Origin: a virus | Strand: one strand, 5' to 3' | DNA: 25,517 nt | Virus record (IMG/VR): IMGVR_UViG_3300025138_000316 | Location: 1-25,517 of that record | In this document: piece after piece, positions 11,559-23,318 of the stretch | Position numbering within the stretch: position 1 is the stretch's first letter | Layout: each line of letters opens with the position of its first letter | Position numbers and translations under genes: made by a program | Notes under the pieces: generated by a model | The model's input: only the letters and a program-made list of their open reading frames with translations | The model's database searches: none | Told to the model about the DNA's origin: nothing

Positions 11559-11585
11559 TTTATAGGTAGCAAGTAGCTTTGTCAA
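11559..11585 (-). promoter_or_regulatory. Sigma-70-like promoter for the 67-residue gene
   Basis: On the minus strand a perfect -35 box TTGACA (11585-11580) is followed after 15 bases by TATAAA (11564-11559), with TATAT sequence just after. A 15-base spacer is shorter than the optimal 17, and a shifted -10 is possible. It lies 35-60 bases upstream of the 67-residue gene and overlaps the end of the endonuclease VII gene. Confidence 0.45.
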
Positions 11586-11998
11586 GACTTTTGTAGGTGT
11601 CTTTTAAGATACTCATGTGCTTTTCCTACTCTGTTTATATCGTCTTTTAATGCTCCTAGTCCTGTATTACAATTACTACAAAGCCAGCCTCTAAATTCTT
11701 CTGTTTTATGACAGTGATCTAAATTCCAGCCTTGTAGTTTAGGCTGGCCCTTTCTTGCAACCTCTTCTAGTGTACGTTCACAAATAGGGCATCTATAGTA
11801 TTCATCAGGGTAAGCATTCGTAGACTTTAAGTGCTTTAAAATTGATGAATGTTTTTGTTTACACTTCTTACACTTTCTTTTTATTTCTCCTGACGGCATA
11901 CTTTGAAATTCTTCTACAGGCTTTATAATACCACAGTCATTGCACTCAAGTCCGTCTGTAATCTCTTGCTGTATTATTTCAAAGAGTTCTAGTTGCAT
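11582..11998 (-). CDS. Recombination endonuclease VII-like Holliday junction nuclease
   Basis: A 138-residue protein. The C-terminal 70 residues carry the T4 endonuclease VII signature: C70-x2-C73, LDHCHKTEEFRG (D94, H95 and H97 in a His-Me finger), C107-x2-C110 and CNTGLGALKDDINRV. The four cysteines bind zinc and the DHCH segment holds the catalytic metal. An extra N-terminal zinc ribbon is visible (C19-x2-C22, C43-x2-C46), common in phage relatives. The enzyme cleaves Holliday junctions and branched DNA, which is needed before packaging. Its ATG shares a base with the upstream TAA (TAATG). A second, unrelated junction nuclease (endonuclease I-like, 15280-15726) is also present. Confidence 0.88.
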   Translation of the reverse strand: MQLELFEIIQQEITDGLECNDCGIIKPVEEFQSMPSGEIKRKCKKCKQKHSSILKHLKSTNAYPDEYYRCPICERTLEEVARKGQPKLQGWNLDHCHKTEEFRGWLCSNCNTGLGALKDDINRVGKAHEYLKRHLQKS

Positions 11999-16794: not shown

Positions 16795-17682
16795 TTAATA
16801 AGGAGCCTCTTCTACTTGAACGATAGCATCCAAGATAACTGGATCAATAGCAACGTCAGGCTTGTTTAGACGCTTCCACTCACTCAGTACGTAATCATTA
16901 GCCCTATCAATGTAGTCCATAAAGTCTCTTGCTAGTTCCTGATCTCCTGATTTCATGGCTGACTTGCTGCCTAATGAGGCTACAACAACAGCATACTTAT
17001 TACCAGAAGGAAGCTTTTCTTTGCGTGACCCTAGTACAATGGTATGTTCAATAGGCAAAAGCCTCATAGCTGAAATTTCATCTAATGAAGCAGCCAAAGA
17101 CTTCTTACTATCATTGTTCTTCAAATCAAAGACAAAAGAAGTCTCCTTATCATAACCCTTTACATTATTACCTTTTGCGTCTACTGCCTTACCTAAGATT
17201 ACTTTACCAAAGATAACCTGAGTATTCTTTACAGTACGTAAGACTTCCTTAGTCTTATCGTCTATTGAATCCCAATCTGGAACGTACTTACTAGGGCGAT
17301 TTAAGTTAAACGTACCACGTGTATCCTTGTGTTCTCCTTTAATTACACCCCTTATAGTCTGAACCATTAAGCTCTTGTGCATCTTGCCCTCTGTTGTATC
17401 CCACTGAGTCCACTGGTGACGGTGAGCAAACAGACGAACAGTAATAGAACGGCTGTACACCTCATTACCTTCAGCATCTTTAAGCTTAAAGGCCCCAAGA
17501 GGTACAATTACCTTCTCTTCTAGTTCACCATCTTCATCTACAACCTCATGCATAATAGGCGCTTGCATCTGTGTCAGACGTGCAAGGTTAGGGCCAGAGG
17601 GTGCTGGCTCTCCTGCCCCACCAAAACCCATAAGTGCTGCCAAGTCTGACCCAGCAAAATTAGTACTCAACTCATTGCTCAT
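16795..17682 (-). CDS. Candidate single-stranded DNA-binding protein, 295 residues
   Basis: No firm motif was recognised, so the function is inferred from context. The protein has a low-complexity start (TNFAGSDLAALMGFGGAGEPAPSGP), a middle with alternating beta-like segments (RSITVRLFAHRHQWTQWDT, SLMVQTIRGVIKGE, TQVIFGKVILGKAV, YAVVVASLG) with many basic and aromatic residues, as in OB-fold SSBs, and a helical C-terminal part ending DAIVQVEEAPY, mildly acidic. Phage SSBs often end in an acidic tail, but this one is weak. It lies between polymerase and exonuclease, where T7 and related phages place ssDNA-binding or annealing proteins. RBS AAAGGAT. A recombination annealing protein paired with the exonuclease is another possibility. 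Confidence 0.45.
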   Translation of the reverse strand: MSNELSTNFAGSDLAALMGFGGAGEPAPSGPNLARLTQMQAPIMHEVVDEDGELEEKVIVPLGAFKLKDAEGNEVYSRSITVRLFAHRHQWTQWDTTEGKMHKSLMVQTIRGVIKGEHKDTRGTFNLNRPSKYVPDWDSIDDKTKEVLRTVKNTQVIFGKVILGKAVDAKGNNVKGYDKETSFVFDLKNNDSKKSLAASLDEISAMRLLPIEHTIVLGSRKEKLPSGNKYAVVVASLGSKSAMKSGDQELARDFMDYIDRANDYVLSEWKRLNKPDVAIDPVILDAIVQVEEAPY

Positions 17683-17724: not shown

Positions 17725-19806
17725 TTAAACATCAACAGTGTCAAGCCAATTAGGCCCTATCTTGGCCTCTAAAAGTAAAGGTACATTCATTTCTACCCCA
17801 TAGTATCTGTTGATGATTGCATCTAGGTTTTCATTAACATCGTCAATAACATCTAGCACCTCCTTCTCTTCTTGTGGGTGTATGTCTATCACTGCTGAAT
17901 CATGAACACTGTTCACCAACCTTGAGTGTAAACCTTTGAGCCTGTTATCAATCTCAAGTAGTACAACAGGTACAACGTCACCAGTAGCAAACCCTTGTAC
18001 TGGGTAATTTTTTATTCTAGTGAAGTTAGTAGGTGTGCCATTGGCTCTACGATGTGTGCCGGGAAATGCATACTGCCTACCTGACACATTAGTTATCTTC
18101 TGTAATCGTATAGCTTCACTGCCTAGCTTCATGTGCCACTTTCCTATGCCTTCATACTTCTCAAGGAAGTGGTGGTAGTAAGCAGCTTCAGCCTTAGTCC
18201 TGCCAAAGCCTGTAGCCCCAAACAGGGGAGCAAACGTGTGTTCCTTGGCAGCTTGCCTAGTTGTAGGTTGACCTGCATCACTGATAACCTTTGCAGTGTA
18301 TGCGTGAACATCAAACCCTGTATCTATCTCTTCCATAGCTACAGCATCTTGTGATAAGAACGCTGCCGCACGAAACTCTAACTGTGCAAAGTCGGCCTCC
18401 ATTATCTTACCTCCCTGCCATCTTGATATAAACACCCGTTTCACAGGAAAAGTACCACCTCTAGGCATGTTCTGCATGTTAGGCTCACGGCCTGAGAACC
18501 TACCAGTAGACGTAATGTGTTGCGTTAAAGACACATGCAGTAGATTATCGGGCTTAGTGTAGGTGTCAATACCATCAACAAAGCTTGACAAGTAACTAGA
18601 CACAGCATTTAGCCGTTTTAAGTCCTCAAGAAACTTAACAGCTACGTTCATCTTATTATCTATTGCTGTGGACCTGAGTGTGTCAAGTATGTCTTTCCCT
18701 GTAGAGAAGCCACTAGCACTAACCCAAGAAGCGTTAGGAGGAAAGAACCCAAACCCAGCCATACGAGGTTGCTTCCTAAGTTGATAGCCTCTGGCGTCAC
18801 AGTCCTTACACTTGTTTGGTCTGGCATACTTTGATCCATCTTTCTTTATTTTATACGTTTCAGAACTGCCCTTACATGTTGAGCAAGTGTACGCTTCAGT
18901 ACGATACAGAATGTCACTGTTAGCATTGATTATTTCCTTTAGTTCACTCAGTTTCTTACAGTTGTCAAACAAGTTGGGCCAATCATCCTTAGAGTGAGGC
19001 TTGCGGCTGAATATAACTTGAGACATTTGTTCTGGGCTGTTTAAGTTAACAGGTGTGTCGCCCATTACCTCACGTACCTGCATCTGTAAGCGTGATTGGA
19101 TAGCACCTCTCTCTTCTTCATACTCTTTACGTACTGCATCAAGAGCCTTACGATCCACCTTCATACCTGTCTGCTTCATTCGTGTAAGTAACTTACATAC
19201 ATTAAACGTAATGTCTCTCACTTTGATAAGACTTGCTGACTCAGGACTAGCAAAGTCTGCAACCTGAGCGTGAAACAGTGCAGCAGTGGTATTGCAATCT
19301 GCCTCAAGATAAAAAGTCAATTCTGATAATGGTATCTCGTCAGTGTTGTAGCCCTCCTTAAAGTATTTCTTTAGTGTGTCATCCTTTTGAAACTCAAGCT
19401 TCCTACGGATAGCAGTGTTACCCAGCGACATAGAGATTTTCTTAGCTACACCATTGGGTGTGATCTCTAGGTTGTTTCCTCTCAGTAAAATACTCTCAGC
19501 TAACATGGTGTCCCATATATCACCTTCGTACTTGAAGCCACACTCCCATAGCCAAGCCAAGTCATGCTGTGCGTTGTGCATGATAAGTAAAGTAGTGTTG
19601 TCTAGTACACGCTGTATGCGTCTAGCTTCTAAGCCTGTCTGATCAACGTACTCTTTGTGCTGAAGATCAAAGGTCAAGGATTCCGTACCGTCATCTACAT
19701 CACGCACACCCACATTGACCAAGAAGTTATCAGGCTCCCAAGGGTCTAAAAATAACTTGTTGTGCCTCTTCTGCGTTGTGTTCTCTACGTCCAATACAAA
19801 GCGCAT
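17725..19806 (-). CDS. polA: Family A DNA polymerase with 3'-5' exonuclease and a DnaJ-like zinc insertion
   Basis: About 693 residues. I chose the ATG at 19806 because AAAGGA stands six bases upstream; the ATG at 19812 is too close to that site. In the numbering from 19812: exonuclease motifs D8-x-E10, HNAQHD (N80, D84) and Y168-x3-D172; polymerase motif A MEADFAQLEFR (D474), motif B R519-x3-K523-x3-F527, motif C VHDSAVID (D638). Between them, residues 310-338 hold two CxxC pairs (CSTCKGS and CKDCDARGY) like part of a DnaJ zinc domain, reported for the HMO-2011 phage polymerase. F527 matches the Phe762 position of E. coli Pol I. Motif C has Ser where Glu is usual (HDE). This is the replicative polymerase. 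Confidence 0.94.
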   Translation of the reverse strand: MRFVLDVENTTQKRHNKLFLDPWEPDNFLVNVGVRDVDDGTESLTFDLQHKEYVDQTGLEARRIQRVLDNTTLLIMHNAQHDLAWLWECGFKYEGDIWDTMLAESILLRGNNLEITPNGVAKKISMSLGNTAIRRKLEFQKDDTLKKYFKEGYNTDEIPLSELTFYLEADCNTTAALFHAQVADFASPESASLIKVRDITFNVCKLLTRMKQTGMKVDRKALDAVRKEYEEERGAIQSRLQMQVREVMGDTPVNLNSPEQMSQVIFSRKPHSKDDWPNLFDNCKKLSELKEIINANSDILYRTEAYTCSTCKGSSETYKIKKDGSKYARPNKCKDCDARGYQLRKQPRMAGFGFFPPNASWVSASGFSTGKDILDTLRSTAIDNKMNVAVKFLEDLKRLNAVSSYLSSFVDGIDTYTKPDNLLHVSLTQHITSTGRFSGREPNMQNMPRGGTFPVKRVFISRWQGGKIMEADFAQLEFRAAAFLSQDAVAMEEIDTGFDVHAYTAKVISDAGQPTTRQAAKEHTFAPLFGATGFGRTKAEAAYYHHFLEKYEGIGKWHMKLGSEAIRLQKITNVSGRQYAFPGTHRRANGTPTNFTRIKNYPVQGFATGDVVPVVLLEIDNRLKGLHSRLVNSVHDSAVIDIHPQEEKEVLDVIDDVNENLDAIINRYYGVEMNVPLLLEAKIGPNWLDTVDV

Positions 19807-19819
19807 TGTCATCCTTTCT

Positions 19820-21043
19820 TTAGGCTAGATACTGTGACCTTGCCCCGTCTAACTCACAGTGAACAACCCCATGCCATCCACCCTTTAGTTTGTTCTTAGC
19901 TACATTTATGTGCCGCTGATTGTCATCATCATCACCCTCAGTAACTTGATTCTTAGCTATAAGCAACATAAGGTCTGCTTCTGCTGCCTTGCCTGTCTTA
20001 CTACCTTCCAGCATAGACTGATCTAAGTAGACTTTATCTTGTGCATCTGCTGACAACTGACTCATCCATATAATAGCACAGCTATACTTCTTAGCTATAT
20101 TACGAGCATGGATAGCAGCAGCCTTGAGATAGACATCCGACTTGTCACTACTCTTTACAGCAAACTTATCTCCCATGTCAAGTACTACTATGTCGGGCTT
20201 ACTATGCTTAATGATATTCTCAACCCATCCTAAGTCTTTTCCTGTGCTATCAAACATGCTGATCTTATCACGGACCTTCTTGTAACGAGCAGCGGCTAAC
20301 GCATAGTTAGACTTAATCTCATCTGTATCCATACTGGCAGCAGCACACAAGTAGCGTTCCGCTACACGCACATACTCTTCTTCATTGCACAGTACCATAC
20401 ACTTAGCTCCCTGCTCAGCAAAACCACTAGGTGATGCTATAGTGGATGCATGGAAGCTTGTCTTACCTGTGTTAGGTCTAGCACCTACGATAATGAAATG
20501 ACCACTACTGATGCCTTCTATGCGCCCAGCCAAACTAGGTATGTTCCACTTCCATTGTGACTGTGTGTTACCAGCCTCAAGAATTGTATCAATGTCAATG
20601 TCAGCCCACTCAACATTCATGTTAGGCATGAAGTTATCCTCATGCGCCTCTAGCACCTGACGTAACGGCTCAAGAGAGGTGAGCTTACCGTTAACGTAGT
20701 CAAAACCTAAGTTAGCTACTTGCTCACCTACATGCTGTTGAAACATACGAGACAGAACGTCAGACGCTACGTCCCTAGACAGAGGCTGCTCTTTGCGTAG
20801 CTTGGCGAACAGCCCCTCATAGAGAACCTTATTAGCAGTGGTCAGTGTGTTGTACTCAGAGAAGAACAAAGCTTCTAGCTCTGATGTGGATATAGTACGG
20901 TCATACTTCTCCATTGCGTTATCTAAGACCTGCTTAATCTTGCGTATGTCTTTAGTAAATAACTTGTCAGGACATTTGATACCCTTGTGATCTTCATAGA
21001 ACTCCTGATCATGTAGAGTTCTTATGAGCGACAAATCCATCAT
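19820..21043 (-). CDS. DnaB-like replicative helicase (RecA-fold ATPase)
   Basis: A 407-residue protein. Residues 1-140 are a helical N-terminal region and the rest is a RecA-like motor: IVGARPNTGKTSF (Walker A, K194), VLCNEEE (H1a region), KPDIVVLDMGD (Walker B, D289), AIIWMSQLSADAQ (H3 with the sensor Gln), then a C-terminal KNKLKGGWHG. This is the DnaB/T7 gp4 helicase class that unwinds DNA 5' to 3' on the lagging strand. It has no zinc-binding or TOPRIM domain, as the primase is a separate gene about 1.5 kb upstream. The ATG is shared with the upstream TAA (TAATG); two ATGs stand in tandem. It lies just before the polymerase gene, as expected for a replisome operon. Confidence 0.88.
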   Translation of the reverse strand: MMDLSLIRTLHDQEFYEDHKGIKCPDKLFTKDIRKIKQVLDNAMEKYDRTISTSELEALFFSEYNTLTTANKVLYEGLFAKLRKEQPLSRDVASDVLSRMFQQHVGEQVANLGFDYVNGKLTSLEPLRQVLEAHEDNFMPNMNVEWADIDIDTILEAGNTQSQWKWNIPSLAGRIEGISSGHFIIVGARPNTGKTSFHASTIASPSGFAEQGAKCMVLCNEEEYVRVAERYLCAAASMDTDEIKSNYALAAARYKKVRDKISMFDSTGKDLGWVENIIKHSKPDIVVLDMGDKFAVKSSDKSDVYLKAAAIHARNIAKKYSCAIIWMSQLSADAQDKVYLDQSMLEGSKTGKAAEADLMLLIAKNQVTEGDDDDNQRHINVAKNKLKGGWHGVVHCELDGARSQYLA

Positions 21044-22348: not shown

Positions 22349-22560
22349 GGTGCTGTCCCTTTCCATAGCTTAAGTTGTGCTTCTAGCTGCATAATATCTT
22401 TTTCTAGCTTAATACATGTCTTATTAAGGTACTTAGCTTGATATTCCCAGTGGTCTGACTCACGTTCAATCATTTCTATCTGGTTACGCAGTTGTTCATT
22501 CTCTTTCTGCACTTTCTTTAACTTAGTCACTGCTTGTTCCCACTCATATCTCTGTATCAT
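22345..22560 (-). CDS. Short coiled-coil protein, 71 residues
   Basis: The whole protein is one predicted coiled coil with heptad-like spacing (EQAVTKLKKVQKENEQLRNQIEMIERE, then LNKTCIKLEKDIMQLEAQLKLW). Its start is at the TAATG junction with the primase stop, so it is coupled to primase, and its stop overlaps the next gene. Coiled-coil proteins of this size in phages can be oligomerisation or anti-host factors, but none is recognised here. Confidence 0.65.
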   Translation of the reverse strand: MIQRYEWEQAVTKLKKVQKENEQLRNQIEMIERESDHWEYQAKYLNKTCIKLEKDIMQLEAQLKLWKGTAP

Positions 22561-23318
22561 TATAGTAACTCCTTAAGTCTTTCAATGTCAGACTCTACAC
22601 GATACTTTATGTCATCGTCAAGCCTGAATGCTATAGTAGTTACCCCTGTCCACTCCTCTATCTCTCGTCTGTACTTCAAGGTCTTGTGTGTAGCATCAGG
22701 ATCTAACGCTACTATGATCTGAGAATAATCTCCTAAGTGTGACATATGTGCCGCACTCAAAGACGTACCAAGAATAGCCATACCTGTGAACCCTAGCTTG
22801 GCTACAGTGATGGCACTGATGACATCCTCAACTACCACCACAGTCTCACCTGTACCAGCAACAAAGTAGTCAGCCTTGCCAGTGTAGCGTAGCCACTTAG
22901 GGTTGCCGCCCTGCAATGCCCTGCCTACAGCATCAATCATTACACCCTTGTGAAAGATAGGAAACACAGCACGTGTATCTTTAAGGTCAAACATCAGCCC
23001 CTGATCCCACAAGTCCCACTTGTCTCTGAACTCATCTAAGCCATCACCACTCTTTACCATATGCTCTGGTATATTCATGGCCTCAATCTTAGGTTTAGCT
23101 TTAGGTATATCTTTCATCCTAGCCTCTATGTCAGCAGCAGTCATACCTACAGTATGGATGCCCTGTATCTTACAGCCTAGCTTGTAACAGTTATACACTA
23201 CCGCACCACCTGACTTGTGTGCAGTAAAAGTATTCTTACCACCACAGTCAGGGCAGTCACCCCTTACAGTGTCACCCTCACTCAAGTCTAAGTCATCTAT
23301 GTATTTATCCATACTCAT
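22560..23318 (-). CDS. DnaG/T7-type DNA primase, zinc-binding plus TOPRIM, no helicase domain
   Basis: A 252-residue protein with the order of the T7 gp4 primase half. Zinc ribbon: C22-x2-C25 (CPDCGGKNTF), C44 and C49 (YNCYKLGCK). TOPRIM fold: VVVVEDVISAI (E164) and IIVALDPDATHK (D206, D208), the metal-binding acidic residues, with GRALQGGNPKWLRY typical of the RNA polymerase region. It makes RNA primers for the lagging strand. The helicase is encoded separately at 19820-21043, so the two parts fused in T7 gp4 are split here. RBS AAGGA six bases before ATG. Confidence 0.9.
   Translation of the reverse strand: MSMDKYIDDLDLSEGDTVRGDCPDCGGKNTFTAHKSGGAVVYNCYKLGCKIQGIHTVGMTAADIEARMKDIPKAKPKIEAMNIPEHMVKSGDGLDEFRDKWDLWDQGLMFDLKDTRAVFPIFHKGVMIDAVGRALQGGNPKWLRYTGKADYFVAGTGETVVVVEDVISAITVAKLGFTGMAILGTSLSAAHMSHLGDYSQIIVALDPDATHKTLKYRREIEEWTGVTTIAFRLDDDIKYRVESDIERLKELL

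Follow-up and report, generated by a model that had tools for sequence, protein, structure and literature searches.

In the replicative DNA polymerase of a marine phage of the HMO-2011 type, four invariant cysteines lie at the tip of the thumb, in a module predicted to fold as a single hairpin that resembles half of the cysteine-rich domain of DnaJ. The likeliest role of this hairpin, proposed here with moderate confidence, would be that of a built-in DNA or processivity clamp. The zinc module itself is already known as a group hallmark: publications from 2019 to 2022 (PMC6918029, PMC8528129, PMC9038755) describe the partial DnaJ central domain of the polymerase as the feature defining HMO-2011-type phages, two CXXCXGXG motifs being the group criterion (PMC9038755), and the GenBank record of HMO-2011 names PF00684 (polymerase ADW08435.1). 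The domain is absent from related OM43 phages (PMC10580990). Few marine viruses are as abundant as the HMO-2011-type phages, yet the module has so far served only for classification. Added here are its position at the tip of the thumb, its one-site nature and its conserved basic residues, evidence, blind to the module, that possession of the cysteines is a general trait of the group, and evidence that the CXXCXGXG definition is too narrow. Placement at the thumb tip turns the module into a concrete processivity question.

The polymerase and its gene neighbourhood

The window analysed is the whole virus record of 25,517 bases. Structural-type genes occupy the plus strand, and the minus strand harbours a replication block composed of integrase, primase, ThyX, DnaB-like helicase, polymerase, Cas4-like exonuclease, endonuclease and ribonucleotide reductase (Table 1). 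An Endonuclease VII-like gene (11582-11998, minus strand; PF02945, E 1e-13) lies at the end of this block. The polymerase is 64% identical to that of Roseobacter phage CRP-2, 54% to that of Puniceispirillum phage HMO-2011 and 38% to that of HTVC033P; it clusters with the HMO-2011 and CRP polymerases in the tree (group support 90/94), and the gene order around it matches that of HMO-2011. As the polymerase is closest to those of CRP-2 and HMO-2011 and the gene order is that of HMO-2011, the record belongs to an HMO-2011-type phage, of which this protein is the replicative family A enzyme. The carboxylates of a proofreading family A polymerase are present, with D8, E10, D84 and D172 conserved in the exonuclease and D474 and D638 in the polymerase domain, and so are the two CxxC pairs of the partial DnaJ domain by which HMO-2011-type polymerases are recognized. 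The preliminary description had likened this feature to the partial DnaJ domain reported for the HMO-2011 polymerase, and the two are indeed the same: to the identity and gene order given above can be added the same four cysteines.

Adjoining the polymerase is a further minus-strand gene (16795-17682) with a counterpart at the same place in HMO-2011 (phage1322_13) and CRP-2 (CRP2_gp30). It has no match in Pfam or PHROG, and our guess is that it may be a candidate replication partner, perhaps SSB-like. Matches to HMO-2011-type polymerases, some of them partial, also occur in marine genome-assembly contigs labelled archaea, Flavobacteriales and others (L336-L345); it is likely that these are phage contigs caught up in the binning, not prophages.

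Table 1. Features of the polymerase and neighbouring replication genes in the 25,517-base window; residue numbers refer to the polymerase.
Feature	Position	Strand	Remarks
Family A DNA polymerase with 3'-5' exonuclease, HMO-2011 type, 695 aa	17725..19812	-	
Exonuclease part, about residues 1-195	19228..19812	-	weak PF01612 match; conserved DxE and Asp residues
Thumb helix before the insert, residues 256-270, NLNSPEQMSQVIFSR	19003..19047	-	equals E. coli Pol I N579-K593
Thumb-tip insert, about 98 aa, residues 271-368	18709..19002	-	
Zinc module, residues 301-352	18757..18912	-	invariant residues; AlphaFold2; match to DnaJ zinc centre II
First CxxC pair, Cys310 and Cys313 (CSTC; CSTCKGSS)	18874..18885	-	conserved 327/327
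Basic hairpin KIKKDG, residues 321-326	18835..18852	-	between the CxxC pairs
Second CxxC pair, Cys335 and Cys338 (CKDC; CKDCDARG)	18799..18810	-	conserved 327/327
Remaining thumb, residues 369-418 (FSTGKDILDTL...)	18559..18708	-	equals E. coli 607 onward
Palm and fingers, residues 419-695	17725..18558	-	PF00476; Bst/Klenow alignments
DnaB-like replicative helicase	19820..21043	-	adjoins polymerase; possible partner; order as in HMO-2011
DNA primase (Toprim, own Cys-rich N-terminus)	22560..23318	-	

An insert at the tip of the thumb

The alignment with Bst polymerase covers residues 206-270 and resumes at about residues 369-392. In E. coli Pol I the equivalents of N256, R270 and F369 are N579, K593 and P607, which places the insert boundary at K593/P607. 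These alignments place residues 271-368 in the loop just after the thumb helix NLSSTKQLQTILFEK, equivalent to residues 594-606 of E. coli Pol I. The insert belongs to the polymerase domain because homologous thumb sequence flanks it on both sides. The preliminary description had assigned the CxxC pairs to the thumb of a family A polymerase, and the Bst and E. coli alignments, which bracket the insert, bear this out; its further statement that they lie between the exonuclease and polymerase domains has to be abandoned, as the site is inside the thumb subdomain. The central domain of HMO-2011-type polymerases has been published with that same location, instead of the thumb placement found here, and the wording probably comes from the start points of the Pfam models.

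Position relative to the thioredoxin-binding domain of T7 gp5 is defined by the same helix. The T7 insert lies one loop earlier, before the N335 helix (NPSSRDHIQKK); the residues named for it in PMC5984650 range from about 268 to 330. Because the T7 insert precedes the corresponding helix and the HMO-type insert comes after it, the two occupy neighbouring, non-identical loops, as the preliminary description had proposed in calling the T7 loop a different one. Where the NPSS/NLNS helix lies rules out a shared loop. Since the T7 insert is wrongly placed by MAFFT, the loop assignment is founded on the NPSS/NLNS motif together with the Bst and E. coli alignments.

The thumb-tip insert measures 95-125 aa in relatives and 19-21 aa in StenR_269-like polymerases. 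Stenotrophomonas phage StenR_269 (L086), a non-HMO relative with this short thumb loop, has a thioredoxin-domain gene just upstream of its polymerase. Autographiviridae polymerases (H4/4, RHEph08, Luutsna-6) usually carry an insert of about 90-140 aa at the same thumb loop but without the Cys4 module. The loop at E. coli 594-606 is an insertion hot spot. One Autographiviridae-type sequence (L377, IMGVR_UViG_3300025652_000198) shows an unrelated CxxC pair (CPKCRGQNHTTGNGTCEHC) in this loop, absent from all its relatives fetched for comparison; this single contig may represent an independent gain of zinc. In the tree a single branch (support 90/94) separates all sampled zinc-bearing polymerases from the rest, a pattern compatible with a single gain of the module, although long branches leave the deepest part of the tree uncertain.

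Conservation of the four cysteines

Relatives were gathered from viral and genome contigs and only full-length sequences were retained (n=327). All four cysteines are kept in every one of these HMO-2011-type polymerases, down to 33% identity, so that their loss among relatives, which the preliminary description had named as grounds for giving up the idea, is ruled out; five non-HMO polymerases in the same alignment do not have them. The pairs also lie where that description put them, Cys313 and Cys335 being separated by 21 residues, close to the 22 it had counted. Removal of sequences more than 85% identical left a non-redundant set of 70 members with a minimum pairwise identity of 33%. Cysteine occurs in 76 alignment columns, and only those of Cys310, Cys313, Cys335 and Cys338 are invariant. 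At all four codons TGT and TGC are swapped without the amino acid ever being altered, and because the codons vary in this way the conservation reflects purifying selection and not chance.

Two later scans used search patterns that lie outside the zinc module. Among the sequences scoring best to the 695-aa polymerase, 81 of 83 carry all four cysteines; the two exceptions (L395, L396), which score about as well to outgroups as to this polymerase, bear a different 48-aa insert. None of the 327 HMO-type polymerases is devoid of the module. A tblastn search with the module alone for copies in other phage proteins returned nothing but HMO-2011-type polymerases and some marginal matches with E of about 8-10.

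Read literally, the double CXXCXGXG motif is present in 33 of the 70 non-redundant members, and CSTCKGSS and CKDCDARG of the 695-aa polymerase do not fit it. As the criterion, taken to the letter, is too narrow and the published checks were done by eye, the polymerase stays in the HMO-2011 group.

A single putative zinc hairpin resembling half a DnaJ domain

The AlphaFold2 model of the whole polymerase, built on an alignment that left out rows from annotated phage records, has a pLDDT of 93 and a pTM of 0.87, with values of 87-96 for the blocks of the module. Modelled alone, the module yields a hairpin with a pLDDT of 85. Its invariant residues are A307, C310, C313, G315, C335, C338 and G342, and the spacing between the CxxC pairs is 21 or 33-34 residues depending on the subgroup. 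Among solved structures, Foldseek searches with the isolated module rank DnaJA2 first (39 columns, rmsd 2.8, prob 1.00, E = 0.13), with BSD2 and anti-TRAP next among the top matches; the E-values, all at 0.13 or more, are weak, and no better would be expected of so small a module. Against viral models only weak matches were obtained, mostly to short proteins of unknown function, and the whole model leads to Bst and other Pol I structures, which are uninformative on the insert.

Profile comparison points in the same direction: a profile of 24 modules matches residues 26-64 of the E. coli DnaJ cysteine-rich domain (1exk), that is motifs 2 and 3, with E = 5e-5. PF00684 is matched by 24 of 24 modules, that of the 695-aa polymerase being below the cut-off (21.5 vs 32.7 bits), and Pfam finds no J-domain in this protein. 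A true, full DnaJ domain is excluded, with two of the four motifs present and a score under the Pfam cut-off. On the sequence comparisons and the predicted structure, the module would be a single Cys4 hairpin similar to zinc centre II, half of the DnaJ cysteine-rich domain, with zinc as the presumed ligand. The term DnaJ-like is therefore apt for a zinc-compatible Cys4 arrangement that resembles one DnaJ zinc centre, and goes too far for what is half a domain. Some 40 residues are too few to establish descent from a DnaJ gene, because the same CXXCXGXG hairpin occurs in unrelated proteins such as anti-TRAP, BSD2 and Q.

Possible functions of the module

The thumb of family A polymerases holds the duplex. 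If zinc kept the hairpin as a rigid two-stranded finger standing out from the thumb alongside the nascent duplex, the conserved Lys and Arg residues at 275, 304, 321, 323 and 334 could touch the DNA backbone, and a thumb equipped with the module would hold the primer-template for longer, acting as a built-in processivity clamp. This proposal draws on the position, the conservation, the single Cys4 site and the basic residues, all read from sequence, and on the predicted fold; from these we infer zinc, DNA contact and processivity, by analogy with the family A thumb inserts of Pol theta, plant organellar polymerases and T7. Once the glycines and presumed zinc ligands are set aside, most conserved positions are basic: a basic residue is found at 275 in 70 of 70 sequences, at 304 in 69, at 321 in 69, at 323 in 70 and at 334 in 59. 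The average net charge of the module is +7.3 vs -12.5 for the remainder of the protein. By charge, only 23 of 70 modules rank in the upper 5% when set against equally long windows of the protein they belong to, and in most members the module is not the most basic stretch. The conserved basic residues favour, and do not prove, contact with DNA. Many zinc ribbons that do not bind DNA are basic too, which counts against a clamp, and so does the T7 precedent, by which a thumb insert may act mainly through a partner protein.

The main rival follows from that precedent: the module would dock a replication partner, be it the DnaB-like helicase, the primase, an SSB-like protein or a host factor. In the polymerases of T7 and of human mitochondria, processivity factors attach to insertions in the thumb (PMC7699545 and, for the T7 thioredoxin-binding domain, PMC5984650); besides thioredoxin, further replisome proteins dock on the T7 insert, and the helicase and polymerase genes are adjacent both in this record and in HMO-2011. 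The most conserved non-cysteine positions are, however, glycines and basic residues and not a hydrophobic patch, and the partner is so far hypothetical. Docking is judged less likely than the clamp, albeit a serious competitor. The 25,517-base record yielded no gene for thioredoxin or glutaredoxin, which would fit a partner other than a T7-type one encoded in cis and led to rejection of a redox partner encoded next door; yet CRP-2 encodes a glutaredoxin, and absence from a record that is a fragment proves nothing.

Less probable still is a zinc site that simply staples a long thumb loop and has no specific ligand. The strictly invariant residues, A307 aside, are cysteines and glycines, and the tip between the CxxC pairs differs in length among subgroups, as a staple would allow; against it, residues 304, 321 and 323 stay basic in 69-70 of 70 sequences without being zinc ligands. 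That the module works as in DnaJ, by recruiting host DnaK or as a thiol oxidoreductase, is very improbable: zinc centre II of DnaJ is reported as needed for DnaK interaction (Linke 2003, as cited in PMC4428491) and a role of DnaJ in lambda replication is cited in PMC9038755 as a hint in this direction, but the protein has half of the cysteine-rich domain only and no J-domain, its PF00684 match is below cut-off despite the hits from all 24 modules, and such hairpins also occur in unrelated proteins.

As to origin, HMO-2011-type phages may have evolved a self-contained, zinc-stabilised processivity clamp by inserting half of a DnaJ-type zinc domain into a loop distinct from that of T7, a statement offered tentatively and with somewhat more doubt than confidence.

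Comparison with known systems

The module shares with the DnaJ cysteine-rich domain (PF00684; 1exk) the similarity to motifs 2 and 3, or zinc centre II, and a predicted hairpin. DnaJ, however, has four CXXCXGXG motifs, two zinc centres and 18 residues between pairs, whereas the phage module has one Cys4 site, 21 (or 33-34) residues between pairs and no substrate-binding domain. Functional parallels may be found among thumb inserts. Insert 1 of Pol theta is described in PMC9962433 as contacting the minor groove and being important for processivity, and insertions 1 and 2 of plant organellar polymerases are modelled against duplex DNA in PMC7699545; both are thumb elements near duplex DNA that are tied to processivity or DNA contact, but they are unrelated to the HMO module, and the passages describing them mention no zinc. 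The thioredoxin-binding domain of T7 gp5 is likewise inserted in the thumb of a family A phage enzyme and has basic residues, and together with thioredoxin it forms a clamp (PMC5984650); in contrast to the HMO module it has no zinc, and the two show no similarity. If the clamp proposal is true, the family A thumb would possess a second loop for accessory modules beside the one used by T7, and in a dominant group of ocean phages the zinc module would replace an accessory processivity factor.
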